This document shows positions 3,688 through 23,703 of a stretch of DNA of 33,161 nt, one piece after another (within the stretch, counting starts at the first letter, position 1; the number at the start of each line of letters is the position of its first letter). The stretch is taken from the NCBI GenBank assembly GCA_022843175.1, contig JALHOE010000087.1:1-33161 (forward strand). The letters run 5' to 3'. The translations under genes were made by a program, and so were the position numbers. The notes beneath the pieces were generated by a model. It made no database searches. It had not been told where the DNA came from and saw only the letters and a list, made by a program, of their open reading frames with translations. This stretch comes from Deltaproteobacteria bacterium (GTDB taxonomy: Bacteria; Myxococcota_A; Polyangia; Polyangiales; JADJMO01).

Positions 3688-3706
3688 GTGTCCGTGTTTT
3701 GGTGGG

Positions 3707-3779
3707 CAGGGGAAGGGGGACTCGAACCCACGGCCTGCGGATTTGGAATCCGCTGCTCTACCAACTGAGCTATTCCCCT
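3707..3779 (-). tRNA. tRNA-Trp (anticodon CCA)
   Basis: A 73-nt cloverleaf: acceptor AGGGGAA pairs with TTCCCCT, the D arm is GCTCAGTTGGTAGAGC, the anticodon loop is TTCCAAA in a GCGGA/TCCGC stem, and the T loop is TTCGAGT. The discriminator base is G, usual for tRNA-Trp. The 3' CCA is not encoded. It lies between rpmG and secE, as in many bacteria. Confidence 0.97.
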
Positions 3780-3789
3780 AACACTTTCC

Positions 3790-3815
3790 GGGGATCCGCC
3801 GGGGGCGGGACCGGG
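3790..3815. repeat. Short hairpin element, copy 1
   Basis: GGGATCCGCC and GGCGGGACCGGG flank a short loop and form an imperfect hairpin. Its arms match the element at 20532-20557, 16.7 kb away. It lies just upstream of the 5' end of tRNA-Trp, between rpmG and the tRNA, and could be an RNA processing site or simply a mobile small repeat. Confidence 0.6.
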
Positions 3816-3863
3816 TATGAGATGAGCGCCGAGGTTAACCGGCGGGAGAGGGATGTCGACTCC

Positions 3864-4007
3864 CTACTTCGTCTCTTTGTGAAGCGTGTGAACATTGCAC
3901 TTCGGGCAATGCTTCTTGAGCTCGAGGGCCTTGCTGCCCGTCTTGCGCGCTCGCGTGGTGCGGTAGTTCCGGCTGCCACAGACGGAACAAACCAGCGTGA
4001 TCGGCAT
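3864..4007 (-). CDS. rpmG: 50S ribosomal protein L33, zinc-ribbon form
   Basis: A 47-residue protein beginning MPITLVCSVCGSRNYRTT and ending HCPKCNVHTLHKETK. The two CxxC knuckles (CSVC and CPKC) mark the zinc-binding form of L33, a small 50S subunit protein. The start at 4007 gives the usual short N-terminus; an in-frame ATG at 4019 would add MSER. It lies between tuf and tRNA-Trp. A long near-perfect hairpin (4035-4100) separates it from tuf and may lower read-through from the very highly expressed tuf gene; that is an inference. Confidence 0.95.
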   Translation of the reverse strand: MPITLVCSVCGSRNYRTTRARKTGSKALELKKHCPKCNVHTLHKETK

Positions 4008-4034
4008 GCGCTCGGACATATGGGGATACGAGCT

Positions 4035-4100
4035 GGAGCCGCGAGCGTGAGCGAGCGGGTTGCTGTTCGAAGCAACCCGCTCCCTGACGGTCGCGGCTCC
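4035..4100. repeat. Long interspersed inverted repeat between tuf and rpmG
   Basis: Two 30-nt arms (4035-4064 and 4071-4100) are complementary at 27 of 30 positions around a 6-nt loop. Read on the minus strand, the arm at 4073-4099 is identical over 27 nt to plus-strand positions 18048-18074 (it begins GAGCCGCGACCGTCAGGGAG). Both also share the GTCAGCGAGCG-type core with the cluster at 2288-2421. This is a dispersed repeat family, not a unique terminator, although here it could serve as an attenuator or an RNA-stabilising stem. Confidence 0.85.
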
Positions 4101-4113
4101 CGCCGTTGCAGAA

Positions 4114-5310
4114 TTACTCGAGGATCTTGGTGACGACGCCCGAGCCGACGGTCTTGCCGCCCTCACGGATCGCGAAGCGCATCTGCGACTCGAGCGCGAC
4201 CGGCGAGATGAGCTCCACCGTCATGGTGACGTTGTCGCCCGGCATGACCATCTTCGTGCCCTCGGGGAGCATGCAGGTGCCGGTGACGTCCGTGGTGCGG
4301 ATGTAGAACTGCGGGCGGTAGTTCGTGAGGAACGGCGTGTGACGGCCGCCCTCCTCCTTCTTGAGGACGTAAACCTGCGCCTCGAACTTCTTGTGCGGGG
4401 TGATGGAGCCCGGCTTCGCGAGGACCTGGCCGCGCGAGACGTCGTCCTTCTCGATACCGCGGAGGAGCGCGCCGATGTTGTCGCCCGCCTGGCCGCTGTC
4501 GAGGAGCTTGCGGAACATCTCGACGCCGGTGACGACCGTCTTCTTCTGCTCCTTGGCGTCCGTGAAGCCGATGATCTCGACCTCTTCGTTGACCTTGATG
4601 ACACCGCGCTCGATACGGCCGGTGACGACCGTGCCGCGGCCCTTGATCGAGAAGACGTCCTCGATCGCCATGAGGAAGGGCTTGTCGATCTCGCGGACCG
4701 GCTCCGGGATGTGCGAGTCGAGGGCGGCCATGAGGTTCATGATGCCCTCCTCGCCCTTGGGATCACCCTCGAGCGCGAGCTTCGCCGAGCCACGAACGAT
4801 CGGGCTGTTGCGGTCGAACTCGTACTTCGCGAGGAGGTCGCGGACCTCTTCCTCGACGAGCTCGAGCATCTCCGGGTCCTCGACCGCATCGACCTTGTTC
4901 AGCCAGACGACGATGGTCTTGAGACCGACCTGGCGAGCCAGGAGGACGTGCTCGCGGGTCTGCGGCATGACCGAGTCGAGGGCCGACACGACCAGGATCG
5001 CGCCGTCCATCTGCGCGGCGCCGGTGATCATGTTCTTGATGTAGTCGGCGTGGCCGGGGCAATCGACGTGCGCGTAGTGACGGTTGTCCGTCTCGTACTC
5101 GACGTGCGAGACCGCGATGGTGACGATCTTCTGATCGTTACGGACGGTGCCGCCCTTGGCGATGTCGGCGTACGAGATCGCCTTCGACTTGCCCTTCTTC
5201 GAAAGGACCTTCGTGATGGCCGCAGTGGTCGAAGTCTTGCCGTGGTCGATGTGACCGATCGTCCCGACGTTCACGTGCGGCTTCGTCCTGTTGAACTTCT
5301 CCTTGGCCAT
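4114..5310 (-). CDS. tuf: Translation elongation factor EF-Tu with atypical switch I
   Basis: A 398-residue EF-Tu that delivers aminoacyl-tRNA to the ribosome as a GTP complex. The P-loop is GHIDHGKT (19-26), G3 is DCPGH (84-88, with catalytic His88 by position), and G4 is NKVD. Domain 2 ([13 protein letters not shown]) and domain 3 ([14 protein letters not shown], ending [15 protein letters not shown]) are canonical. The effector loop is not: the near-universal RGITI is replaced by KIVTI (61-65), preceded by [10 protein letters not shown], where an APEE-type sequence is usual, and the loop is two residues longer than in E. coli. The Mg-coordinating Thr is kept. DGPMPQT is also altered, to DSVMPQT. 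The start has a strong GGAGGA at 5319-5324, eight bases upstream. It follows four tRNA genes, as tufB does in E. coli. Confidence 0.97.
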
Positions 5311-5331
5311 CTCAGTCGTCCTCCGGTGAAG

Positions 5332-5346
5332 GCAAAAACTTTTTGC
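5332..5346. other. 15-nt A/T-rich palindrome in the tuf leader
   Basis: On the minus strand the sequence is GCAAAAAGTTTTTGC, two 7-nt arms around one base. It lies between the 3' end of tRNA-Thr(GGT) and the tuf ribosome-binding site and stands out in a GC-rich background. It could be a processing or regulatory site. As RNA it cannot close a loop of one base without opening several pairs. Confidence 0.5.
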
Positions 5347-5360
5347 GGTCTACTGTTTCG

Positions 5361-5433
5361 AGCCCACCACCGGGATTGAACCGGTGACCTCCCCCTTACC
5401 AAGGGGGTGCTCTGCCAGCTGAGCTAGGTGGGC
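5361..5433 (-). tRNA. tRNA-Thr (anticodon GGT)
   Basis: A 73-nt cloverleaf with acceptor GCCCACC/GGTGGGC, anticodon loop TTGGTAA in a CCCCC/GGGGG stem, and T loop TTCAATC. The 3' CCA is not encoded. It is the last of four tRNA genes upstream of tuf. Confidence 0.97.
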
Positions 5434-5457
5434 GGCTAATACACTGCGGATTGCGGG

Positions 5458-5530
5458 AGCGGGAGACGGGACTCGAACCCGCGACGTTCAGCTTGGAAGG
5501 CTGACGCTCTACCAACTGAGCTACTCCCGC
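5458..5530 (-). tRNA. tRNA-Gly (anticodon TCC)
   Basis: A 73-nt cloverleaf with acceptor GCGGGAG/CTCCCGC, anticodon loop CTTCCAA and T loop TTCGAGT. A second copy of the acceptor sequence (GCGGGAG on the plus strand at 5453-5459) overlaps the 3' end; the copy at 5459-5465 gives the right T-arm spacing. No CCA is encoded. Confidence 0.97.
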
Positions 5531-5541
5531 GCGTGGGTTCG

Positions 5542-5623
5542 TGGAGGGTGTTGGATTCGAACCAACGTAGGCAGTGCCGGCAGATTTACAGTCTGCTCCC
5601 TTTGGCCGCTCGGGCAACCCTCC
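5542..5623 (-). tRNA. tRNA-Tyr (anticodon GTA)
   Basis: An 82-nt class II tRNA with a long variable arm, acceptor GGAGGGT/ACCCTCC, anticodon loop CTGTAAA in a GCAGA/TCTGC stem, and T loop TTCGAAT. The discriminator is A. No CCA is encoded. Confidence 0.97.
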
Positions 5624-5685
5624 GAGATCGTTGAACTAGGTGTCCCTTTCGTGAACCAAACTCCGAGTCGAGTGAAAGACAGGCG

Positions 5686-5759
5686 AGCTGACGAGGGGAG
5701 TTGAACCCCTAACCGCCTGTTTACAAAACAGGTGCTCTGCCGGGTTGAGCTACGTCAGC
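5686..5759 (-). tRNA. tRNA-Thr (anticodon TGT)
   Basis: A 74-nt cloverleaf with acceptor GCTGACG/CGTCAGC, anticodon loop TTTGTAA in a CCTGT/ACAGG stem, and T loop TTCAACT. It is the first gene of the Thr-Tyr-Gly-Thr-tuf series, matching the E. coli thrU-tyrU-glyT-thrT-tufB order. Confidence 0.97.
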
Positions 5760-9487: not shown

Positions 9488-10477
9488 ATGGGCTTCGACA
9501 TCCGTGCGCTGAACGAGGTGGTCCAGCGGGAGAGCGCGTTCGTCGATCGCGTGATCTCCGAGACGGCGACCGTCATCGTCGGGCAGACCTACATGATCGA
9601 GCGGATCCTCATCGGTCTGCTCACCGGCGGGCACGTCCTGCTCGAGGGCGTCCCCGGCCTGGCCAAAACGCTCACCGTCCGCACCCTGTGCCGGGCGATC
9701 GACGCCAAGTTCGCCCGTGTGCAGTTCACGCCCGACCTGCTCCCGGCAGACCTGATCGGGACCGTCATCTACGACCAGCGCAGCGGCGAGTTCACCCCCA
9801 AGCTCGGGCCGATCTTCGCGAACCTGGTCCTCGCCGACGAGATCAACCGCGCCCCGGCCAAGGTGCAGAGCGCGCTGCTCGAGGCGATGCAGGAGCGGCA
9901 GGTCACCATCGGCGACAAGACCCACCCGCTGCCGAATCCGTTCGCGGTCCTCGCCACGCAGAACCCGATCGAGCAAGAGGGCACCTATCCGCTGCCCGAA
10001 GCGCAGGTGGACCGCTTCATGATGCTCGTCCGCGTCGGCTACCCGTCGCGCGAGGAGGAGCGGCAGATCATGGACCGCATGACCCAGCCGCTCTCCCACG
10101 AGCCCAAGCCGGTCTGCACGCCGCAGGACCTGCTCTCGGGCCGGCGGACGGTCGAGCAGATCTATGTGGACGAGAAGGTGAAGGACTACATCGTCGATGT
10201 CGTCCACGCCACGCGCGAGCCGCACAAGCACGGGCTCAAGGAGCTCGACGGCCTCGTGGAGTACGGCGCCTCGCCGCGCGCCTCGATCGCCCTCAATATG
10301 GCCGCGCGCGCCCACGCCTTCCTCCGTCATCGGGGATACGTCACGCCCGAGGACGTCAAAGAGGTCGGCCCCGACGTGCTCCGCCACCGCATCGTCCTCA
10401 CCTACGAGGCCGAGGCCGAGATGGTGACGACCGAGCAGGTCGTGAAGAAGGTGTTCGAGGTCGTCGAAGTTCCCTAG
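9488..10477 (+). CDS. moxR: MoxR-type AAA+ ATPase
   Basis: A 329-residue AAA+ ATPase of the MoxR family, thought to act as a chaperone for proteins with von Willebrand A (VWA) domains. Walker A is GVPGLAKT (54-61), Walker B is LVLADEIN (113-120), followed by RAPAKVQSALLEAMQERQVT, and the sensor-1 region is ATQNPIEQEGTYPLPEAQ. The C-terminal lid is typical of the family (YGASPRASIALNMAARAHAFLRHR). The start at 9488 has AGAGGAA at 9477-9483. It heads a cluster with a DUF58 protein and the VWA proteins BatA and BatB, the usual MoxR partners. Confidence 0.95.
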   Translation: MGFDIRALNEVVQRESAFVDRVISETATVIVGQTYMIERILIGLLTGGHVLLEGVPGLAKTLTVRTLCRAIDAKFARVQFTPDLLPADLIGTVIYDQRSGEFTPKLGPIFANLVLADEINRAPAKVQSALLEAMQERQVTIGDKTHPLPNPFAVLATQNPIEQEGTYPLPEAQVDRFMMLVRVGYPSREEERQIMDRMTQPLSHEPKPVCTPQDLLSGRRTVEQIYVDEKVKDYIVDVVHATREPHKHGLKELDGLVEYGASPRASIALNMAARAHAFLRHRGYVTPEDVKEVGPDVLRHRIVLTYEAEAEMVTTEQVVKKVFEVVEVP

Positions 10478-10482
10478 CTGCG

Positions 10483-11394
10483 ATGATCCCCAAAGAGCTC
10501 CTCAAGGCCCTACGGCAGATCGAGATCCACACGTCTCGACTGGCGACGAACGCGCTCGGCGGCAACTACACGAGCGTCTTTCGCGGGCAGGGGATCGCGT
10601 TTCGCGAGGTGCGTCCGTATCAGCCGGGCGATGACGTGCGGCAGATCGACTGGAACCGCACGGCCCGCATGGGCGAGCCCTTCGTGAAGATCTTCACCGA
10701 AGAGCGCGAGATGACGGTCATGCTCGTCGTCGACGTGTCGGCGAGCGAGAAGTTCGGCACCGCCAAGGCCACCAAGGGGCGCGTCGCCGCCGAGGTCGCC
10801 GCGCTCCTGGCCTTCAGCGCGATCAAGGGAGGCGACCGCGTTGGCCTCGTGCTCGCGAGCGACCGCGTCGAGCGGATGGTGCCGCCGCGCAAGGGTGAGA
10901 AGCACGTGCTGCGCGTCACCCGCGAGGTGCTCGGCGTGGAGCCGTCGGGCCGCACCACCGATCTCGCGGTCGGCCTCGAGACGCTCACTCGGGTGGCCAA
11001 GCGCCGCAGCGTGGCCTTCCTCATCAGCGACTTCTTCGTCCCCGAGGGCGACGACCGCCGCCGCGTGCGGTTCGAGCGGATGCTCGCGCTCGCGGCGGCC
11101 AAGCACGACGTGGTCGCGATCGAGCTCGTCGACCCGCGCGACGACGAGCTGCCCGACCTCGGCCTGGCGATGCTCGAGGATCTCGAGACGGGCGAGGAGG
11201 TCCTCGTCGACACCTCCGACCCCGAGGTGCGCAAGGCCTTCGCGGCGCACTCGCGCAAGCGGCGGGCCACCATCCGCTCGATCTTCAAGCGGCTCGCGAT
11301 CGACACGGTGACGGTGCGGACCGACGGCTCCTACGTGAAGCCCATCCGCGATCTGTTCGCGCGCCGCGCGAGCCGCGCGAGGAGCGGCCGATGA
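10483..11394 (+). CDS. DUF58 protein with VWA-like fold
   Basis: A 303-residue protein starting at the ATG at 10483, five bases after moxR stops; the frame is open far upstream only as a shadow of moxR. The DUF58 signature FREVRPYQPGDDVRQIDWNR is at about residues 38-57, and DVSASE at about 84-89 is a DxSxS metal-binding (MIDAS) motif of a VWA domain. No membrane segment is evident, unlike longer DUF58 proteins. Such proteins sit beside MoxR and are presumed clients or adaptors. The stop overlaps the next start by four bases, so translation is coupled. Confidence 0.93.
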   Translation: MIPKELLKALRQIEIHTSRLATNALGGNYTSVFRGQGIAFREVRPYQPGDDVRQIDWNRTARMGEPFVKIFTEEREMTVMLVVDVSASEKFGTAKATKGRVAAEVAALLAFSAIKGGDRVGLVLASDRVERMVPPRKGEKHVLRVTREVLGVEPSGRTTDLAVGLETLTRVAKRRSVAFLISDFFVPEGDDRRRVRFERMLALAAAKHDVVAIELVDPRDDELPDLGLAMLEDLETGEEVLVDTSDPEVRKAFAAHSRKRRATIRSIFKRLAIDTVTVRTDGSYVKPIRDLFARRASRARSGR

Positions 11395-12419
11395 CGCGCG
11401 CGCTCATCGTGCTGCTCGTGCTGTTGTCGTCGCGCGCGGCGCTCGCCGCGTGCGCCGAGAACGTGCCGGCGGGCGCGACCAAGCCGACGTTGGTCGAGAA
11501 GATCGAGCCGCGGGGTAAGGCCGGTGACCTCGTTCACCTGGAGATCGCCGTGCGCCACCTCGCGGGCGAGACCGCGACGCTGCCCGCCGATCTGGCCAAG
11601 CTCGCCAACGGCGAGGTCCGCGTGGCGGACGACGGCACCTTCGGGCGCGGCGAGGTGCCGAAGTCGGCCCCCGTCCCCGGCGACCCGGCCTCGGCGACGA
11701 CGATCCTCAAGGTCCCGTTCGTGGTCCTGTCGACGGCGCTCCAACGCAAGACGTTCACCATCCCCGCGGTGCGCGTGATCGTCCTCCGCAAGGGCGGCGG
11801 CGATCTGTCGGTGTGCACCGCGGAGCACGCGATCGCGATCGACCAGCCCACGGCCAACACGCCCGATCCGGCCGTGCGTCCCAACCCGCCCTCGCTCCCT
11901 CAGCGCACGCGCGACGAGCGCGCCGAGGCGATCGCCAACGCGGTCGTGTTCTCGACGTTGGGCGCGCTGACTGTCGCCGCGCTGCTCTGGTGGTGGCGTC
12001 GTCGACCGGTGGAGGCGCCCCCTCCCCCTCCCCCGACGCCGTCGTGGAAGCTCGCGATCGAGGCGATCACCAGGGCGCGCCGCGACTTCATGAGCGGCGC
12101 GATCGACACCAAGCTGTTCTACGACCGCATCTCCGACGCCGTGCGCGCCCACCTCGGAGATCGCTATGGCTTCGACGGTCTCGAGTCGACGACCGACGAG
12201 ATCCTCTCTCGCCTCCGCCGGCTGCCCACGCCGAGTTTTCCCTTCGGCGAGGTCGAGAAGCTGCTCTCCGAGTGCGACCTCGTGAAGTTCGCCAACTACC
12301 GTCCCGAGACCGACGAGGCCAACGCCACCGCCGATCTCGCCGAGTCGGTGGTGCGGGCGACGACGCACCCCCTCGCGCTGCGCCCCTATGACCCCCGTCC
12401 ACGGGAGGCGTCGGCATGA
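11391..12419 (+). CDS. DUF4381-like single-pass membrane protein of the Bat operon
   Basis: A 342-residue protein with a signal peptide (VLLVLLSSRAALA before Ala-Cys-Ala), an outer beta-rich region at about 25-150 resembling the N-terminal half of BatD (KPTLVEKIEPRGKAGDLVHLEIAV), one membrane segment at about 182-200 (ANAVVFSTLGALTVAALLWW), a proline hinge (PPPPPPTPSW), and a cytoplasmic helical domain to the end. That layout and position, between a DUF58 gene and batA, fit the DUF4381-type proteins of MoxR clusters. The assignment rests mainly on context and architecture. It overlaps both neighbours by four bases. Confidence 0.75.
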   Translation: MTRALIVLLVLLSSRAALAACAENVPAGATKPTLVEKIEPRGKAGDLVHLEIAVRHLAGETATLPADLAKLANGEVRVADDGTFGRGEVPKSAPVPGDPASATTILKVPFVVLSTALQRKTFTIPAVRVIVLRKGGGDLSVCTAEHAIAIDQPTANTPDPAVRPNPPSLPQRTRDERAEAIANAVVFSTLGALTVAALLWWWRRRPVEAPPPPPPTPSWKLAIEAITRARRDFMSGAIDTKLFYDRISDAVRAHLGDRYGFDGLESTTDEILSRLRRLPTPSFPFGEVEKLLSECDLVKFANYRPETDEANATADLAESVVRATTHPLALRPYDPRPREASA

Positions 12420-13507
12420 CCTGGCGCGCTCTGTCGGTGACGCTCGCGGCGGCCCTCGCGATCGCGGTCGGTCTCGCCTGGGCCCTGATCGCGCTCGGCC
12501 CCGAGCTGTCGGCGGTGCGGTGGGACCGGCCGTGGTGGCTGCTCGGGCTGCTGCTCGTGCCGGTTGTCCTCTACGTGGGCACCCTCGCCGAGGACGCACG
12601 CGTGCCGCGGCTGCGCGTCGGAACGATCAGCGCCGCCAAGCGCGCCGGGGGCGGGCTCCGCGCGCGCCTCCGCGACGCGCCGGGCATCCTCCGCGCGGCC
12701 GCGGTCGCGCTGATCGTCCTCGCGCTCGCGCGACCGCAGTCGATCGCGGCGGCCGAGACCGACGAGCGACGCGGCATCGACGTGATGGTCGTGCTCGACA
12801 TGTCGCTGTCGATGCGCGCGGCCGATCTCAAGCCGACCCGCCTCGCGGCCGCCAAGGTCGTGATCCAGGAGTTCCTCGAGCGGCGCAACGACGACCGCCT
12901 CGGCGCGGTGGTCTTCGGTCGCGACGCGTTCCTCCTCTCGGCGCCCACGTTCGATCACCCGCGCCTCGGCCAGCTCGTGGGCAAGATGCAGCTCGGCGCC
13001 ATCGACGGCGGCGGCACGGCGATCGGCGACGGGCTCGCGACGGCGCTGGCGCGCCTGCGTCACTCCAAGGCGACGTCGCGGGTGATCGTGCTCCTCACCG
13101 ACGGCGACAACAACGCCGGCTCGATGAGCCCGGAGTACGCGACCGAGCTCGCACGGCAGCTCGGGGTGAAGATCTACTCGGTGCAGATGGGCAACGGCGA
13201 CGCGGTCGACGTGGAGGTCGAGAAAGACCAGTACGGCCGCCCCGTGTACGAGCGCGTGCGCTTCCCGGTGAAGCCCGAGGTCCTCAAGAAGATCGCCGCC
13301 GACACCGGAGGCGAGTTCTGGATCTCGACCGACGCCGACCAGCTGCGCTCGTCGATGCACCAGATCCTCGACCGCCTCGAGAAGACGCGGTTCGAGGCGG
13401 CCGCGGGCGACGTCGTCGAGCGGTTCCCCCTGCTCCTCGCGCCCGGCGTGGCGCTGGTCCTGATCGAGGCGCTCCTGCGCGCGATCGTGCTGCGGAGGTT
13501 CCCGTGA
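12416..13507 (+). CDS. batA: BatA-like VWA-domain membrane protein
   Basis: A 363-residue protein. Hydrophobic segments lie at about 6-28, 38-56, 91-108 and 335-355. The VWA domain between the last two carries the MIDAS motif DMSLS (128-132), GGTAIGDGL and LLTDGDNN, so metal binding is expected to be intact. BatA proteins are membrane VWA factors first linked to aerotolerance in Bacteroides; in other groups they are tied to envelope stress. Here the first membrane helix is extra relative to a minimal BatA. Start and stop each overlap the neighbouring genes by four bases. Confidence 0.92.
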   Translation: MTWRALSVTLAAALAIAVGLAWALIALGPELSAVRWDRPWWLLGLLLVPVVLYVGTLAEDARVPRLRVGTISAAKRAGGGLRARLRDAPGILRAAAVALIVLALARPQSIAAAETDERRGIDVMVVLDMSLSMRAADLKPTRLAAAKVVIQEFLERRNDDRLGAVVFGRDAFLLSAPTFDHPRLGQLVGKMQLGAIDGGGTAIGDGLATALARLRHSKATSRVIVLLTDGDNNAGSMSPEYATELARQLGVKIYSVQMGNGDAVDVEVEKDQYGRPVYERVRFPVKPEVLKKIAADTGGEFWISTDADQLRSSMHQILDRLEKTRFEAAAGDVVERFPLLLAPGVALVLIEALLRAIVLRRFP

Positions 13508-14553
13508 CCTTCGAGCACCCGAAGCTGCTCCTCCTGCTCCCGATCGCGCTGGTGCTGCTCGCGCTGCAGGTCCTCGGCGACATGCGGCGGCGGCGCGCCG
13601 GCGCGGCGTTCGGCCAGGCGCGGCTGATCGACGCGCTGGTGACGTTCGACGCCGGCCCGCGACGCGCCGTGAAGGGCGCGCTGCGGGTGCTGGCTGTGCT
13701 GCTGGTCATCGTCGCGGTCGCGCGGCCCCGCTACGGGCGCGGCACCAAGGTCATCCCCGCGGCGGACGTCACCGCGATGGTCGTGCTCGACCTCTCGAAG
13801 TCGATGTACGCGCAGGACATCCTCCCCTCGCGCCTCGAGCGCGCGCGGAGCGACGTGCTCCGCATGATCAAGACGCTCCCGCGGGTGCGGTGGGGCGCGG
13901 TCGCCTTCGCCGGTGAGGCGATCGCGTTCCCGCCCACCAGCGACGCGCCCGAGGCGGTGGCGTTCATCGGCGCGCACGATCCCGCGGAGATGCCCGGTGG
14001 CACCGCGATCGCGCGCGCCCTCGAGATGGCGCGCCGGCAGGTCACGCCCGAGGGCGCCCAGCCGCGCCCCGAGGCGCGTCGCAAGACGGTGATCGTCCTC
14101 GTGACCGACGGCGAGGACCTCGAGGGAGATCCGATCGCGGTCGCGCGTCAGGCGTTCAACGAGGGGATCAAGATTCACGTCGTGGCGGTCGGCTCGCGCG
14201 CGCCCCAGCCGATCCCCGACATCGACCCGGCGACGGGCAAATCGAAGGGATACATCCACGACGAGGACGGCTCGCTGGTGACCACCGAGCTGTCGCCGCA
14301 GGCCGAGGACCAGCTGAAGTCGATCGCGCTCGAGACGAAGGGCAAGTTCGTCCACGCCGAGGACGGCAGCACGGGCATCGCGACGATCGAGGCGGAGCTC
14401 AAGTCGATGATCGCCGCCGAGGGCACCGAGCGCGTGGAGACGTTGTTCGCCGACGTCTTCGCGATCCCGCTCGGCATCGCGCTCGCGCTCCTCGTGCTCG
14501 ACACCCTGCTCGGCGAGGCGCCGCTGCGCCGGCGGAGGGCCTATGCGCGCTAG
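13504..14553 (+). CDS. batB: BatB-like VWA-domain membrane protein
   Basis: A 349-residue protein that starts at GTG 13504, inside the batA stop (GTGA overlap). Membrane segments lie at about 7-24 and 60-74 and near the C-terminus (LFADVFAIPLGIALALLVLD). The VWA domain has the MIDAS motif DLSKS (96-100), GGTAIARAL and LVTDGEDLEGD. The Bat-type loop with SKGYIHDEDGSLVTT precedes LSPQAEDQLKSIA. It is the expected second VWA protein beside BatA and probably forms a complex with it. The next gene starts 11 bases before this one ends. Confidence 0.92.
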   Translation: MTFEHPKLLLLLPIALVLLALQVLGDMRRRRAGAAFGQARLIDALVTFDAGPRRAVKGALRVLAVLLVIVAVARPRYGRGTKVIPAADVTAMVVLDLSKSMYAQDILPSRLERARSDVLRMIKTLPRVRWGAVAFAGEAIAFPPTSDAPEAVAFIGAHDPAEMPGGTAIARALEMARRQVTPEGAQPRPEARRKTVIVLVTDGEDLEGDPIAVARQAFNEGIKIHVVAVGSRAPQPIPDIDPATGKSKGYIHDEDGSLVTTELSPQAEDQLKSIALETKGKFVHAEDGSTGIATIEAELKSMIAAEGTERVETLFADVFAIPLGIALALLVLDTLLGEAPLRRRRAYAR

Positions 14554-15556
14554 CCGTGCGCTCGCCGCGCTCCTGCCGATCGCCCTGTCGTTCGGCGCGT
14601 GCTCGTTCGAGAAGCTCTTCGAGCGCGACGACCCCCGCGTCGAGACCGCGCGCGCTGCGCTCGACGGCGGCCCCGACGCCGATCTGCAGGGCGCCCGAGT
14701 CGCCCTCGAGGAGGTCCTCAAGTACCGCTGCGAGAGCGACGGCGGGCAGGATCTGGTGCTCGATCGTCCGAACGCGGCCCTCGATCTCGGCCTGGTGATC
14801 TTCCGCCTCTCGGAGCTGATCGGCCGCCGCTTCGGCGAGGAGGAGCTCCCCGACGGCGGCACCGAAGAGGGCGACGAGCTGGTGATGAGCGCGCGCGGAA
14901 AGCAGCTCGACTGCGCGCACCTCTTGTTGCTCAAGGTCGCGACCGATCCCAAGACGCCCCTCGCGCTCGCGATCCGCGCGCGCTACCTCCTCGGAAACCT
15001 CGCGTTCCTCGCGCGCCGCTACAAGGACGCGATCGCGCGCTACGACGAGGTCCTCCTCGCCCACCCGGCCCGCGGCGTCGACTCGGCGGAGACAGGGCCG
15101 CCGTCGGACGACGACGCCGTCGCGCGCTACGCGGCGTGGAACCGCGCGATCGCGCTCAAGCGGCTCGAGGATCAGGACGCCGGCCCCGACGCCGACGCGG
15201 CCAACGACGGCGCCGACGGCGGCGACGAGTCCGGCGACGGCAGCAGCGACAGCAGCAGCGAGGGCGGCGACAGCAGCGACAGCAGCAACGAGGGCGGCGA
15301 GAGCGGCGGCGCCGACACCGGCGGCGACACCGGCGGCGGCGACCAGCAGCCCGACTCGGGCCAGGGAGACGGTGGGCAGGACACCTCCGCGCCGCCCCCC
15401 TCGCCAAGCACCACCACGCCGCCGCCGATGCCCTCCTCGTCGGCAGCGGTCGATCTCCGCGAGCTCGATCGCTTCGATCAGAAGGCGCCGTTGGATCTCG
15501 ACTTCAAGGCGCGCCTGCGCGAGCGGCGGAAGCTGCCCAAGAAGCTCGACAAATGA
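14543..15556 (+). CDS. BatC-like lipoprotein with low-complexity region
   Basis: A 337-residue protein. The N-terminus MRASRALAALLPIALSFGAC is a signal peptide with Cys20 as possible lipidation site; Phe at -3 makes the lipobox weak. Residues about 30-215 are helical with a TPR-like part (ARYLLGNLAFLARRYKDAIARYDEVLLAHP). Residues about 216-300 are low-complexity Asp/Gly/Ser then Pro/Thr, including an internal 30-nt duplication. The C-terminus is charged (FDQKAPLDLDFKARLRERRKLPKKLDK). The place between batB and batD and the TPR part suggest the BatC slot; sequence identity to BatC is not obvious to me. It overlaps batB by 11 bases and batD by four. Confidence 0.75.
   Translation: MRASRALAALLPIALSFGACSFEKLFERDDPRVETARAALDGGPDADLQGARVALEEVLKYRCESDGGQDLVLDRPNAALDLGLVIFRLSELIGRRFGEEELPDGGTEEGDELVMSARGKQLDCAHLLLLKVATDPKTPLALAIRARYLLGNLAFLARRYKDAIARYDEVLLAHPARGVDSAETGPPSDDDAVARYAAWNRAIALKRLEDQDAGPDADAANDGADGGDESGDGSSDSSSEGGDSSDSSNEGGESGGADTGGDTGGGDQQPDSGQGDGGQDTSAPPPSPSTTTPPPMPSSSAAVDLRELDRFDQKAPLDLDFKARLRERRKLPKKLDK
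15241..15300 (+). repeat. 30-nt in-frame tandem duplication in the BatC-like gene
   Basis: Positions 15241-15270 and 15271-15300 are two 30-nt units differing at one base (AGC versus AAC, Ser to Asn). They encode a Ser/Asp/Gly stretch (SSDSSSEGGD then SSDSSNEGGE). A 12-nt unit (GACACCGGCGGC) is then repeated twice at 15314-15337. Both unit lengths are multiples of three, so copy-number changes would keep the frame. Confidence 0.85.
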
Positions 15557-17313
15557 AGCGCGCGCTCTTCCTCGCCTCGGTGGCCATGGTGACCGTCGCC
15601 TCCCCGCGACCGGCCACCGCCGCGCCGACGGTGCTCGCCGAGGTGGACCGCAAGGTCGTCGGCGTCGGCGAGACGATTCAATACTCGATCACCATCCGCT
15701 CGAGCGAGAGCATCACGGTGGGCTCGGTGAGCGCGGGGAGCGTCGAGGGCTTCGACGTCATCGGCAAGCAGAGCGGCCAGTCGAGCAGTTGGGTCCCGCA
15801 GAACGGGCAGTTCGTCGACGTCGCGACGTTCAGCGTCACGTTCACGCTGCGCGCCAAGGCGATCGGCACCTACAAGCTCGGGCCCGGGCGGGTGCTCATC
15901 TCGGGGAAGACGGTGCAGACCGCCGTGCAGCGCGTCGAGGTCGTCGCCGCGGCGAAGAAGCCGCGCGGACCGTTCGACGACCTGATGGACGACGAGCCGG
16001 CGCCGCCGCCGCCGGCGCACGCCCCCGCAGACCCGCTGGCTGCGGTCGACGCCGCGCCCACCGACGCAGACAAGCGGATGTTCTTCACGCGCCTGGTCCC
16101 GTCCACCAAGACGGCGATCGTCGGCGAGCAGGTCACGCTCAAGCTCTTCGTCTACTCGCGCGATCCGCCCAAGGTCTTCGTGAAGCGCCCGCCGGTGCTG
16201 CCCGACTTCCGTCACGTCCCGCTCGGGGGCGTCGACAAGATGTGGCAGAAGATCACCATCGGCGACGACGTCTGGCTGTACGGCACGCTCGAGGCGTTCG
16301 CGGCGTTCCCGCTCCGCCCCGGCAAGCTGCCGATCGGTCCCTCGATCGTCGAGACGGTGCGCGAGCTCGCGTTCGGCAAGGCCGACCAGCGCGACGTCGA
16401 GTCGCCCGACACCGAGGTCGAGGCGGTCGAGCCGCCGGCTGCGGGACGACCTCCGGGGTACGTGCTCGGCGACGTCGTGGCCGACCTCATCGTCGAGGCC
16501 GACGTCGCGCCGCGCGTCGTCACCGACGGACACGCGCTGGTGACGCTGCGCATGAAGGGCGCGGGCCGCCTCGATCCGCTGCGCCCCCAGCTGTCGAGCC
16601 CCGCGGCGGTCACGTGGACCAACACCGGCGACGAGACCAAGACGCGGATCGACGCGCTCACGGTGGTCGGCGAGCGGAAGCTCCAGATCGACGCGCGGTT
16701 CGATCGCACGGGGGATCTCGAGCTCGGCGAAGCGGTGATCCACGTGTGGGATCCGAAGCGAAAGGGCTACGTCACCGCGCGCTCCGCGCTCGGGAAGGTG
16801 CGGGTCAACAAGGTGGCGGAGTCCAACGCGCTGCCGGGGGCCGCGGCGCCGGCCGCGTTGCCGCCGCCGCGAGGGGCGATCGGTCGACCGGGCGAGGGCC
16901 GATCGCTCGCCGACCGCGCGCTCACCTGGATCCTGGTCGGCGGCGCGCCGCTCGCGGTCGTGCTCTCGCAGGTCGCGACGTCGCTCGCGCGTCGCCGTCG
17001 GGAGCGGGCCGCCCAAAAGGAAACCGACCCCGCCGAGCAGGCGCGGCGCGCGCTGCTCGAGGCCAAGAACGATCCGATCGGCGCGTGCACCCGCGCGCTC
17101 GATCGCGCGGTCGAGGCGGCGACCGGCGTGCGGCCGCGCGGGCTGACCCGCGTGGAGCTCTCGCGCGCGCTCGGGGCCACCGCGCTGGATCCGAAGCTGG
17201 TCGACGCGCTCCTCCGTGCCTTCGACGATCTCGAGTCGGCGCGCTTCGCCGGCGGCAAGCCGCCCACGGTCGAAGAAGTGCGCGCGCTCGTCGATCGGGT
17301 GCTGCCACCATGA
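15553..17313 (+). CDS. batD: BatD-like membrane protein
   Basis: A 586-residue protein starting at ATG 15553, inside the preceding stop. A signal peptide (MKRALFLASVAMVTVASPRP) is followed by beta-sandwich domains starting PTVLAEVDRKVVGVGETIQYSITI, the usual BatD opening, and a second unit near ADKRMFFTRLVPSTKTAIVGEQVTL. An Ala/Pro linker lies at about 145-175. A single membrane segment at about 458-475 (WILVGGAPLAVVLSQVATSL) precedes a cytoplasmic helical domain (ARRALLEAKNDPIGACTRALDRAVEAATG) ending in a short acidic fold. BatD is the outer-facing partner of the BatA/BatB VWA proteins. Confidence 0.92.
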   Translation: MKRALFLASVAMVTVASPRPATAAPTVLAEVDRKVVGVGETIQYSITIRSSESITVGSVSAGSVEGFDVIGKQSGQSSSWVPQNGQFVDVATFSVTFTLRAKAIGTYKLGPGRVLISGKTVQTAVQRVEVVAAAKKPRGPFDDLMDDEPAPPPPAHAPADPLAAVDAAPTDADKRMFFTRLVPSTKTAIVGEQVTLKLFVYSRDPPKVFVKRPPVLPDFRHVPLGGVDKMWQKITIGDDVWLYGTLEAFAAFPLRPGKLPIGPSIVETVRELAFGKADQRDVESPDTEVEAVEPPAAGRPPGYVLGDVVADLIVEADVAPRVVTDGHALVTLRMKGAGRLDPLRPQLSSPAAVTWTNTGDETKTRIDALTVVGERKLQIDARFDRTGDLELGEAVIHVWDPKRKGYVTARSALGKVRVNKVAESNALPGAAAPAALPPPRGAIGRPGEGRSLADRALTWILVGGAPLAVVLSQVATSLARRRRERAAQKETDPAEQARRALLEAKNDPIGACTRALDRAVEAATGVRPRGLTRVELSRALGATALDPKLVDALLRAFDDLESARFAGGKPPTVEEVRALVDRVLPP

Positions 17314-18023
17314 CGGACGCGGCTGCCGCGATCAGGGAGGGTCGGCTCGACGACGCGATCGCGCTCCTCGAGCAGCTCGGCGATCAGGGCGCGGTCGGCG
17401 CGTCGCTCGCGTTCGACCGGGGCCTCGCCTATGCGCTCCGCGCGCGGTCCGGTCGCGGCCTGCCGGGCGACTACGGCCGCGCGGCGCACGCCTTCGAGGA
17501 GGCTCTCCGTCGCGATCCGCACGACGGCGAGGCGCGCCGAGTGCTCGACGAGATCCGTAGAGAGATCGCCGCTCGCGACGCGCAGGCGAAGGGCAAGGCC
17601 GAGGAGCTCGCCTCGCAGCCCGCGTACCGCGCGGTGTTGGTGGCGCTGCCGGGCGACGCCTGGGCGGGGCTCGCGCTCGTCGCATCGTTGCTCCTGTCGA
17701 TCGCGCTCGCGGCGCGCCCGCGCCTCACGCGCGGCCTGCGCCTCGCGGCCTCGACGACCGCGATCGTCTCGGCGGTGGTGATGATCGCGGCGAGCGGCAT
17801 GGCCCTCGGCGCGCGGTGGCTCCGCACGAGGGTGCGCGAGGCGGTCGTCGTCGCGCCGCGCGTGCTCACGACACCCGAGGAGGGAGGCGCGATCGAGCTC
17901 GACGAGGGCCAACGCGTCGACGTCGTCGAGGAGCGCGCGACGAGCACGATGATCCGCACCGAGAAGGGCACCGGCTGGGCCCCCCGCGACGCGCTGCGGA
18001 TGCTGCCCCCGTATCGCCCCTGA
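17310..18023 (+). CDS. batE: BatE-like protein: TPR, two membrane helices, SH3-like domain
   Basis: A 237-residue protein whose ATG at 17310 overlaps the batD stop by four bases. Residues 1-95 are TPR-like (REGRLDDAIALLEQLGD, DYGRAAHAFEEALRRDPHDGEA). Two membrane segments follow at about 118-136 (AWAGLALVASLLLSIALAA) and 144-165, then an SH3-like domain at about 178-232 (VLTTPEEGGAIELDEGQRVDVVEERATSTMIRTEKG, split by turns, then GWAPRDALRML). This TPR-membrane-SH3 layout at the end of a Bat operon is that of BatE. It lacks an N-terminal signal peptide, so the TPR part is probably cytoplasmic. It converges on the methyltransferase across a repeat-rich gap. Confidence 0.85.
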   Translation: MTDAAAAIREGRLDDAIALLEQLGDQGAVGASLAFDRGLAYALRARSGRGLPGDYGRAAHAFEEALRRDPHDGEARRVLDEIRREIAARDAQAKGKAEELASQPAYRAVLVALPGDAWAGLALVASLLLSIALAARPRLTRGLRLAASTTAIVSAVVMIAASGMALGARWLRTRVREAVVVAPRVLTTPEEGGAIELDEGQRVDVVEERATSTMIRTEKGTGWAPRDALRMLPPYRP

Positions 18024-20599: not shown

Positions 20600-20836
20600 G
20601 TGGCGGACAACGAGTCGAAGGGTCGGATCAGCCTGACCGATGCGCGCTCGGACAAGCGCAAGCAGAGCCTCTACTTCCCCGAGGAGATGCTGCAGGAGAT
20701 CAAAGACGAAGCAGCGCGTCTCGATCGCTCGCTCTCGTGGGTCGTGCAGCGCGCGTGGAAGATCGCCCGCCTCGAGATCCGCAAGCTCCCGAGCGTGAAC
20801 GAGATCAACAGCGGCGAAGACGAAGACGAGGGCTGA
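20600..20836 (+). CDS. Small ribbon-helix-helix-like protein
   Basis: A 78-residue protein. GTG 20600 is chosen because GAGGAGGT (20589-20596) lies directly upstream. After a charged N-terminus, residues about 23-60 read KQSLYFPEEMLQEIKDEAARLDRSLSWVVQRAWKIAR, a strand-helix-helix pattern typical of ribbon-helix-helix (Arc/MetJ-like) DNA-binding proteins; the end is acidic (GEDEDEG). I recall a small family of this kind in myxobacteria (possibly TIGR04563), but cannot confirm it here. No toxin gene adjoins, so it does not look like an antitoxin of a standard pair. Its stop touches that of the converging FliQ-like gene with no gap. Confidence 0.8.
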   Translation: MADNESKGRISLTDARSDKRKQSLYFPEEMLQEIKDEAARLDRSLSWVVQRAWKIARLEIRKLPSVNEINSGEDEDEG

Positions 20837-21082
20837 TCAGCCCCCGAAAGACCTCGTCGCGAACGCGACGAGGGTGCGGGCCATCCATGGCGCCGCTAGC
20901 GCCGTAGCCACGGCGACCGCAATGAGCTTGGGGAGGTGGGCCAAAGCCGCGTCCTGCAAGCTCGTTGCGCTTTGAAGCGCCGACACGAACAGCCCGACGA
21001 TCGCCGCGACCGCGACGATCGGCAGGCTGAGGGCGGTCGCGAGCACCAGCGCCTCGCGCACGAGCGCGAAGGGCGCGTCCAT
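20837..21082 (-). CDS. FliQ/SctS-type export apparatus protein, isolated
   Basis: An 81-residue protein with two membrane segments (about 12-34 and 50-68) joined by the family's conserved hairpin loop VGLFVSALQSATSLQDAALAHLPKL, read in two parts, then APWMARTL. FliQ and its type III secretion counterpart SctS are small export-gate subunits that form a helical assembly with FliP/SctR and FliR/SctT. No other flagellar or type III gene is in the window. The ATG at 21082 overlaps the stop of the preceding lipoprotein gene by one base (TGATG), so its translation is probably coupled to that gene. Possible explanations are a scattered type III system, a relic, or a repurposed subunit. Confidence 0.85.
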   Translation of the reverse strand: MDAPFALVREALVLATALSLPIVAVAAIVGLFVSALQSATSLQDAALAHLPKLIAVAVATALAAPWMARTLVAFATRSFGG

Positions 21083-21459
21083 CAGTCGGCCGCGTCGGCG
21101 TCGGCGGCGGGCGGGGTGCCGGTGTCCGCCGGGGCGTCGGTGGAGGTCTCGCTCGCCGTGCCGGTGTCGGCGGCCGTCTCGCCGGTGCCGGTGTCCGTGG
21201 GCGGCTCGGTCTCGGCGGCGGTGCCGGTGTCGGTCGTGGGCGTCGTCGCGCCGTTCTTGCACTCGTCCGTGGTGGAGCGCGCGCGGTCCGGCGGGCAGCA
21301 GATGCGGTCGGCGAAGCCGACGTTGCTGCACTTGAGGTTGGTGTCGCAGTCGTCGTCGACCTCGCAGCGCATGGCCTCGGTCTGCTTGCCGCAGGCCTGG
21401 AACACGAACCCGGTGGCGAACAGCATCGCGGCAGCGAAGGCAACGGACCGAACCGACAT
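21082..21459 (-). CDS. Small Cys-rich secreted protein or lipoprotein with Thr/Asp-rich tail
   Basis: A 125-residue protein of unknown function. A signal peptide (MSVRSVAFAAAMLFATGFVF) ends near Gln-Ala-Cys, giving a possible but weak lipobox. Residues about 31-67 hold a cysteine cluster (RCEVDDDCDTNLKCSNVG, then RICCPPDR and DECK), a spacing typical of small disulfide-knotted modules common in myxobacterial secreted proteins. The last 55 residues are a low-complexity Thr/Asp/Ala/Glu stretch much like the tail of the beta-helix protein at 1-1460. It is coupled to the FliQ-like gene by a TGATG overlap. Confidence 0.8.
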   Translation of the reverse strand: MSVRSVAFAAAMLFATGFVFQACGKQTEAMRCEVDDDCDTNLKCSNVGFADRICCPPDRARSTTDECKNGATTPTTDTGTAAETEPPTDTGTGETAADTGTASETSTDAPADTGTPPAADADAAD

Positions 21460-21477
21460 GGGGCTCTCGATAACATA

Positions 21478-21505
21478 GTCGACAGTCGACCGTCGACAGT
21501 CGACC
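21478..21505. repeat. 14-nt tandem duplication rich in GTCGAC
   Basis: GTCGACAGTCGACC is present twice in tandem (21478-21491 and 21492-21505), in the 102-base gap between glgC and the Cys-rich protein gene. Every unit has two palindromic GTCGAC sites, so it can fold back in several registers. Its role is unknown. Confidence 0.8.
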
Positions 21506-21561
21506 GTCCGTTCTCGCTGCGCGAGCTGTTCTGTAGCGAGATCGCCCGGTCGACGTTCGAT

Positions 21562-23612: not shown

Positions 23613-23629
23613 GGCCGAGGTCTTGTCAG

Positions 23630-23703
23630 TGCCGGAGGAGGGAATCGAACCCCCGACCTAGCGCGTATGAAACGCCCGCTCTAACCATCTGAGCTACTCC
23701 GGC
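23630..23703 (-). tRNA. tRNA with CAT anticodon, probably elongator tRNA-Met
   Basis: A 74-nt cloverleaf with acceptor GCCGGAG/CTCCGGC, anticodon loop TTCATAC and T loop TTCGATT; discriminator A; no encoded CCA. It lacks initiator marks (the three G-C pairs of the anticodon stem and an unpaired first base). A tRNA-Ile with CAT read as lysidine cannot be excluded by eye. The anticodon stem has wobble pairs at both ends. Confidence 0.92.

Follow-up and report, generated by a model that had tools for sequence, protein, structure and literature searches.

The sctS gene and its lipoprotein partner

The window, a stretch of 33,161 nucleotides, is the whole of contig C87 of its source genome (G000), an assembly of 9.75 Mb in 470 contigs with 95% completeness and 1% contamination. 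On the minus strand, it carries an sctS/fliQ-like export-gate gene encoding 81 amino acids (20837..21082), preceded by a gene encoding a Cys-rich lipoprotein of 125 amino acids (21082..21459). The stop and start codons of the two genes overlap in the motif TGATG (21080..21084, minus strand), with base 21082 being common to both open reading frames. A preliminary description of this DNA had reported an isolated FliQ/SctS gene, joined in this manner to the gene of a secreted Cys-rich protein with a Thr/Asp-rich tail, and both statements were borne out. The pair is flanked upstream by a nucleotidyltransferase gene and downstream by a convergent gene of 78 codons, whose stop codon abuts that of sctS without a spacer (20836/20837). 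A stem search placed a terminator-like stem at this junction (20827..20846, minus strand), and three terminator-like sites were found between 20500 and 21700, compared with 0.4 expected.

Several other features of the window were recorded. Just 5' of the start of the lipoprotein gene, at 21477-21508, GTCGACAGTCGACC is repeated 2.2 times and forms a terminator-like stem on the minus strand; no repeat of the GTCGACAGTCGACC type was seen in the 120 bases 5' of the lipoprotein gene in four relatives of the same family. Six tRNA genes (Trp, Thr, Gly, Tyr, Thr, and Met) are located at 3703-5759 and 23629-23703, five of which surround what we take to be a tuf-like gene, and the region 9488-18023 holds a run of genes that are presumably MoxR/BatA/BatD-like.

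The assignment of the export-gate gene was examined with several profile libraries. The protein matched PF01313 with 74.5 bits (E 6.5e-21; gathering cut-off, 25) over positions 4-73 of the 74 in the profile, and it was the sole PF01313 match in the source genome. It scored 71.4 bits against the NCBIfam SctS model (cut-off, 76.5) and 65.6 bits against the FliQ model, both values lying under the cut-off. A profile built from 13 SctS rows retrieved seven distinct sequences from the PDB, including FliQ (2.6e-16) and SpaQ (1.9e-11). When eight home-made type III secretion system (T3SS) profiles were applied to the window, SctS alone was matched; the SctJ and SctQ profiles among them are narrow. Home-made profiles for these two components, built from flagellar seeds, missed the divergent copies of the source genome, whose SctJ and SctQ were identified by Pfam searches.

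Translation of the partner gene gave a protein with a signal-peptide-like start, an FQA-C lipobox, six further Cys residues, and a Thr/Asp/Ala-rich tail. The hydrophobic signal peptide and the lipobox with Cys23 are encoded at 21391..21459, a putative disulphide-rich domain at 21259..21390, and the low-complexity tail at 21085..21258 (all on the minus strand); the protein is presumably lipidated, as judged from the lipobox. An alignment of 35 members of this lipoprotein family showed that C23, C32, D37, C38, C44, C54, and C55 are invariant and that C67 is nearly so, while the tail is not conserved in sequence and is rich in Thr, Asp, Ala, Ser, or Gly. The AlphaFold2 model (mean pLDDT 73.8, pTM 0.44) predicted a small beta hairpin, with pLDDT blocks of 89-93 at residues 31-70 and a tail of low confidence (blocks of 52-69), which is probably a disordered stalk. 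A Foldseek search with the model returned 45 matches, none of them significant (best E, 0.77); the frequent occurrence among these matches of small disulphide folds of the Dickkopf and spider-toxin types may give a hint of the fold of the predicted head. No significant Pfam match was obtained for the six lipoproteins scanned (best E, 0.39), and none of the four scanned against NCBIfam gave a match.

We then examined whether the gene pair is kept in related genomes, a check that the preliminary description had proposed. The genome set comprised 56 genomes from the genus, family, and order of the source organism, the source genome included. Of 68 SctS matches in this set, 21 were judged to be flagellar because sctR lies directly upstream, and the 47 not so placed were classed as non-flagellar. 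In all 13 genomes of the source family (f1) and one related family (f12) that carry a non-flagellar SctS, the lipoprotein gene is located directly 5' of sctS; a ninth f12 genome (G032), which carries only a flagellar SctS copy, lies outside these 13. The lipoprotein is absent from the other 34 of the 47 non-flagellar loci, which belong to eight families. A database search with the f1 and f12 SctS proteins yielded 40 loci, assigned to Polyangiaceae, Labilithrix, Sorangium, Myxococcales, Myxococcota, or delta-proteobacterium and nearly all from metagenome-assembled genomes, with nine of the contigs taken as identical to contigs of equal length in the 56-genome set. The lipoprotein gene was found upstream of sctS in 39 of these loci, in one of which (L239) it is cut at its start; in the fortieth (L234), the contig ends 66 bases short of sctS. 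These counts demonstrate that the pairing of the two genes is beyond chance.

Among the database loci, 34 of 36 measurable gaps between the two genes fell between -3 and +29 bases. A lipoprotein profile, seeded from 26 of the 39 database loci, gave 60 matches in the 2.15 Mb of partly redundant DNA scanned, 57 of which adjoin sctS, and the remaining three represent one tandem copy in three overlapping loci. Furthermore, the pair is retained although its surroundings are not the same in f1 as in f12, and although it is inverted with respect to them in G003. All three observations speak against the lipoprotein being a passenger, that is, a protein with an unrelated role in the envelope whose gene shares an mRNA with sctS by historical accident. 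Such a passenger is nevertheless favoured by the SctS loci of the eight families that have no lipoprotein and by the outer flanks of the database loci, which are mostly conserved (one upstream family in 27 of the 35 loci containing an upstream gene and one downstream family in 29 of 39), so that a kept gene order is not unusual there. It is further favoured by the rate of evolution. The dN/dS ratios of SctS in three pairs were about 0.05, 0.20, and 0.07 (Nei-Gojobori), showing that SctS is under purifying selection, whereas those of the lipoprotein, in three pairs and one core-only comparison, were 0.63-0.82 by the simple Nei-Gojobori method, with a tail that aligns poorly. Owing to this fast evolution, the lipoprotein could be a loosely constrained passenger. 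We regard this explanation as possible but rather doubtful, and a functional partnership of the lipoprotein with SctS as the better reading of the conserved pair.

Dispersion and joint occurrence of the export genes

T3SS genes are generally detected in clusters, and it is the clusters that are counted. In the source genome, each of the remaining export genes was detected at a separate site: single matches were obtained for SctR (C144), SctT (C64, a weak match of 39 bits), SctV (C291, one frame matched in two pieces), SctU (C215, its C-terminal half, located at the edge of the contig), SctJ (C31, 53 bits), and SctQ (C40), and one of four ATPase matches, on C326, was above the FliI/YscN cut-off and was taken as SctN. 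The gate and ATPase genes R, S, T, U, V, and N are thus all present, U as a fragment, and the eight genes J, N, Q, R, S, T, U, and V lie on eight different contigs. Of the two possibilities raised in the preliminary description, a scattered type III system is supported by these matches and by the conservation of the gene pair.

Scatter across an assembly of 470 contigs proves little by itself, and the long assemblies of relatives are therefore important. In G015, a single contig of 10.33 Mb, the genes are located at 1.96 (U), 5.48 (J), 5.75 (S and T, adjoining), 5.80 (V), 7.98 (R), 9.10 (Q), and 9.78 Mb (N). In G030, which consists of two contigs with all of the genes on the first, they are located at 1.72 (V), 1.78 (T and S), 2.05 (J), 5.62 (U), 8.48 (N), 9.20 (Q), and 10.27 Mb (R). 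The eight genes of both genomes thus occupy seven sites at least 50 kb apart. A 1.97-Mb contig of G037 has S, V, J, and T scattered along it, and a second contig of 0.90 Mb has U, R, and N. Because the same scatter is seen in the long contigs of these three genomes, an assembly artefact was rejected as its cause. These results show that the genes of the set, with sctJ, N, Q, R, S, T, U, and V as a minimum, are dispersed singly; the one exception is sctS and sctT, which adjoin each other in the majority of the order's other families. In 31 of the 34 non-flagellar loci outside f1 and f12 (exceptions: G012, G021, and G053), SctT lay no more than about 0.6 kb from SctS, whereas in f1 and f12 the non-flagellar SctT, where found (10 of 13 genomes), lies away from SctS. 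Since f1 and f12 lack the S-T pair and possess the lipoprotein, the loss of the former and the gain of the latter go together, in one or a few events.

Matches in the 56 genomes, counted with flagellar copies and weak matches included, were obtained for V in 50, S in 49, U in 46, R in 50, T in 47, J in 48, Q in 49, and an ATPase over the cut-off in 47. Five genomes, all of genus g7, lacked V, S, U, R, T, J, and Q as well as an ATPase over the cut-off. The joint absence of the eight genes is the pattern that the loss of an entire single machine would leave; as the five genomes belong to one genus, they probably reflect one loss event. Missing assembly may account for single gaps in other genomes, such as those of U, J, and N in G001 or of R, T, and Q in G004.

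The second possibility raised in the preliminary description, a new use of SctS by itself as a small two-helix membrane protein, fared poorly. It would accord with the presence of SctS in a presumed transcription unit with only one other gene. However, the gate and export partners exist in the source genome, five genomes of one genus are without all of them together, and none of the 13 f1 and f12 genomes keeps sctS and the lipoprotein gene while lacking every other sct gene, and we consider reuse of this kind extremely improbable. A further question was whether the scattered genes are what remains of a decaying T3SS or flagellum, as their dispersion and divergence, the weakness of SctT and SctU in f1, and the partial set of family f11 might indicate. 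The two f11 genomes, G014 and G019, still show weak, fragmentary V and R matches, a match for Q, and an ATPase below the cut-off, but no match for S, T, U, or J, and this lineage seems to be losing the machine. Decay is disfavoured by the purifying selection on SctS in three pairs (the sole gene among the eight assayed for dN/dS), by the matching of each component in 46-50 of the 56 genomes (flagellar copies included), by the very few export-gene rows of this set that contain a stop codon, and by the support for f1, f12, and f6 in the SctV tree described below. Decay is thus highly unlikely.

Relationship to flagellar and non-flagellar export proteins

To classify the proteins of the source genome, their scores against the Sct and flagellar models of NCBIfam were compared. 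The values were 181.5 and 147.7 bits for R, 48.8 bits and no match for T, 660 and 573 bits for V, 169 and 160 bits for U, and 559 and 553 bits for N. The Sct score was the higher in all six of the components classified, although the margins for S, U, and N were below 10 bits; J and Q were left unclassified. None of the six reached its Sct equivalog cut-off (S, 71.4 vs. 76.5; R, 181.5 vs. 208.6; V, 660 vs. 692; U, a fragment, 169 vs. 358; N, 559 vs. 605; T, 48.8 vs. 163), while the subfamily models PRK12797 (EscR/YscR/HrcR; 211 against a cut-off of 179) and TIGR01026 (FliI/YscN; 540 against 379.5) were passed. SctV of the source genome also missed the FlhA equivalog cut-off (573 vs. 772). As a control, the clustered copies of two relatives scored 826 and 824 against FlhA, passing its cut-off, and 589 and 617 against SctV.

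An SctV/FlhA tree of 85 proteins was inferred by a quick IQ-TREE run with no M. xanthus or canonical injectisome rows included. Thirty-nine of the 51 stand-alone rows formed one branch (SH-aLRT 88), within which f1, f12, and f6 appeared as supported sub-branches and f3, f5, and f9 were partly held together. All 29 clustered rows fell in a branch of 36 rows (SH-aLRT 100), together with five unclassified rows and two that are stand-alone. The remaining ten stand-alone rows, which are long or early and include those of G022 and G023 of the order, were unplaced. In genomes carrying both types (e.g., G002, G017, G041, and G050), the stand-alone SctV was located outside the flagellar branch. In a sample of the phylum, SctV/FlhA was detected in 79 of 140 genomes; among 19 loci from outside the order (6-20 kb each), 18 contained SctV/FlhA but gave no match for R, S, or U with the home-made profiles, and two of these 18 (G079 and G090) fell in the flagellar branch of the tree.

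These data bear on whether the genes represent the export apparatus of a flagellum that has itself been lost, rather than a T3SS-type machine. The subunits of the two apparatuses are homologous, and a FliO-type gene, normally flagellar, was found directly 5' of sctR in three f12 genomes (L256, L257, and L258; Pfam FliO, 43.8 bits as checked in G017). In addition, a flagellar-type cluster is also present in 21 relatives; G017 and G041 carry such a cluster elsewhere despite the FliO-type gene 5' of sctR. Against a flagellar origin, the Sct models score higher in six of six components, if narrowly for U and N, the clustered controls score as FlhA, the reverse of the proteins studied here, and the clustered copies of relatives constitute another branch, outside of which stand-alone SctV lies in the genomes that carry both. 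Only one export set, with one PF01313 match, was found in the source genome; according to the preliminary description, a second FliQ within a complete flagellar or type III set would make the window gene a relic or paralog, and none appeared. We judge a flagellar remnant to be unlikely. The points that count against an Sct-type assignment are the scores of all six components below their Sct equivalog cut-offs, the thin U and N margins, the weak SctT (39 bits), the fragmentary SctU, the FliO-type gene in f12, and, in the tree, the ten unplaced stand-alone SctV rows and the two in the flagellar branch. With these points weighed, the window gene probably encodes the SctS gate subunit of a dispersed type III machine of the non-flagellar type, with a putative lipid-anchored, disulphide-rich envelope partner.

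Gene neighbours and the proposed machine

The neighbourhoods of the other dispersed genes were examined for further components. In 10 of 11 genomes (exception, G017), a protein with a GYF-to-AgmX-type C-terminus is encoded 5' of sctJ, its gene ending 50-440 bases before it (L314 on contig C31 of G000, L274, L275, L296, and L298-L303); two of the ten positive genomes provided the seeds of the profile used. This neighbour is a possible further component of the machine. The SctJ neighbour in G053 also contains a kinase domain and gave a weak match to the AgmX/PglI-end model. By a simple pattern search, a zinc-ribbon protein was found 5' of sctS in at least 12 of the 47 non-flagellar loci (f5, f6, and f9). 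The two that were checked contain Zn_ribbon_4 and GYF_2 domains, and the one scanned against NCBIfam gave a weak AgmX/PglI-end match. The layout 5' of sctS and the C-terminus 5' of sctJ resemble those of the gliding-motility proteins GltJ and AgmX, but the score against the GltJ model was 77 with a cut-off of 450, and the zinc-ribbon proteins are of GltJ-like architecture rather than GltJ. Loci L137, L139, L144, and L111 are examples of a GltJ-like zinc-ribbon/GYF protein 5' of sctS in families without the lipoprotein, and in several of them sctT is followed by what is presumably an hpt-like gene.

A DUF3634-type gene lies 5' of sctR in four f1 genomes (50.1 bits as checked in G000), and a small lipoprotein gene lies 3' of sctQ in the five f1 and f12 genomes of the 11 examined. 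For SctN, U, V, and T, no neighbour was conserved in more than three genomes. SctV in f3 adjoins genes that we take to be ybaB/recR-like housekeeping genes (L159 and L195), with a presumed dnaX-like gene in L159. A gene at 6005-6736 of L088, which in G000, G001, and G003 is located a few genes 5' of sctR, had no significant Pfam or NCBIfam match; we assume it to encode an MglA-like small GTPase.

In T3SSs in general, SctN and SctQ prepare the substrates, SctV and SctU select them, and SctRST passes them into the periplasm. In the proposed machine, SctS would sit in this inner-membrane SctRST gate. In the source family and the one related family, sctS has parted from sctT and either overlaps the lipoprotein gene or lies closely behind it. 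The lipoprotein would present a small disulphide-rich head on a flexible acidic/Thr-rich stretch, probably held in the outer envelope, and would act at the envelope-facing end as a cap, receptor, or surface element, the canonical site of the secretin and needle. Evolving fast on a fixed frame of Cys residues at the outward side, it would meet variable partners. The machine, if its subunits assemble into one complex, would work like the needle-less T3SS* of Myxococcus xanthus, and a role in prey lysis like that of T3SS* is put forward as a proposal only.

According to the reports on M. xanthus T3SS* (MXAN_2434-2464), the Kil pilus recruits that system to sites of contact with prey, and prey lysis depends on it (PMC12075869, PMC10433427). 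As described there, it resembles the present genes in comprising non-flagellar-type sctJ, N, Q, R, S, T, U, and V in Myxococcota with vertical descent (PMC3459982, PMC10433427, PMC12075869); by the same descriptions, it differs in that its genes are clustered, while here they are single (or sctS with sctT) and occur in other lineages. The survey of Abby and Rocha (2012), which searched for clusters of hits, confines the clustered Myxo type of non-flagellar T3SS (NF-T3SS) to Cystobacterineae (PMC3459982). That type is recognized by clustering in a short or long locus, which the dispersed genes do not show. The same source describes scattered NF-T3SSs in Chlamydiales and a few others (PMC3459982). 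The arrangement reported here differs from that of Chlamydiales in that the eight core genes occupy seven to eight loci. To our knowledge, no lipoprotein-sctS pair is present in Chlamydiales. In other studies, multi-copy sctV and sctR are mentioned in Myxococcia and Polyangia (PMC11509652), and Tad and T3SS homologues were assigned mainly to Myxococcaceae by an identity cut-off (PMC11821767, PMC10469934). The literature, as far as its text was accessible, yielded no account of dispersed T3SS genes in this group or of the lipoprotein.

A wider and distinctly tentative suggestion is that a branch of Myxococcota possesses a cluster-less type III machine without needle or secretin, whose outward end would be formed by lineage-specific envelope proteins. 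In two families, SctS would be coupled to the lipid-anchored, disulphide-rich lipoprotein, whose fast-changing head would meet prey or neighbouring cells. In other families, AgmX/GltJ-type single-span proteins would be coupled to SctS, and such proteins would accompany SctJ almost everywhere. Should a dispersed, vertically inherited machine in other parts of the phylum belong to the Myxo branch, the range of that branch would widen. The lipoprotein and the AgmX-type proteins are concrete candidates for the means by which a needle-less T3SS, such as M. xanthus T3SS*, could reach the outer envelope.
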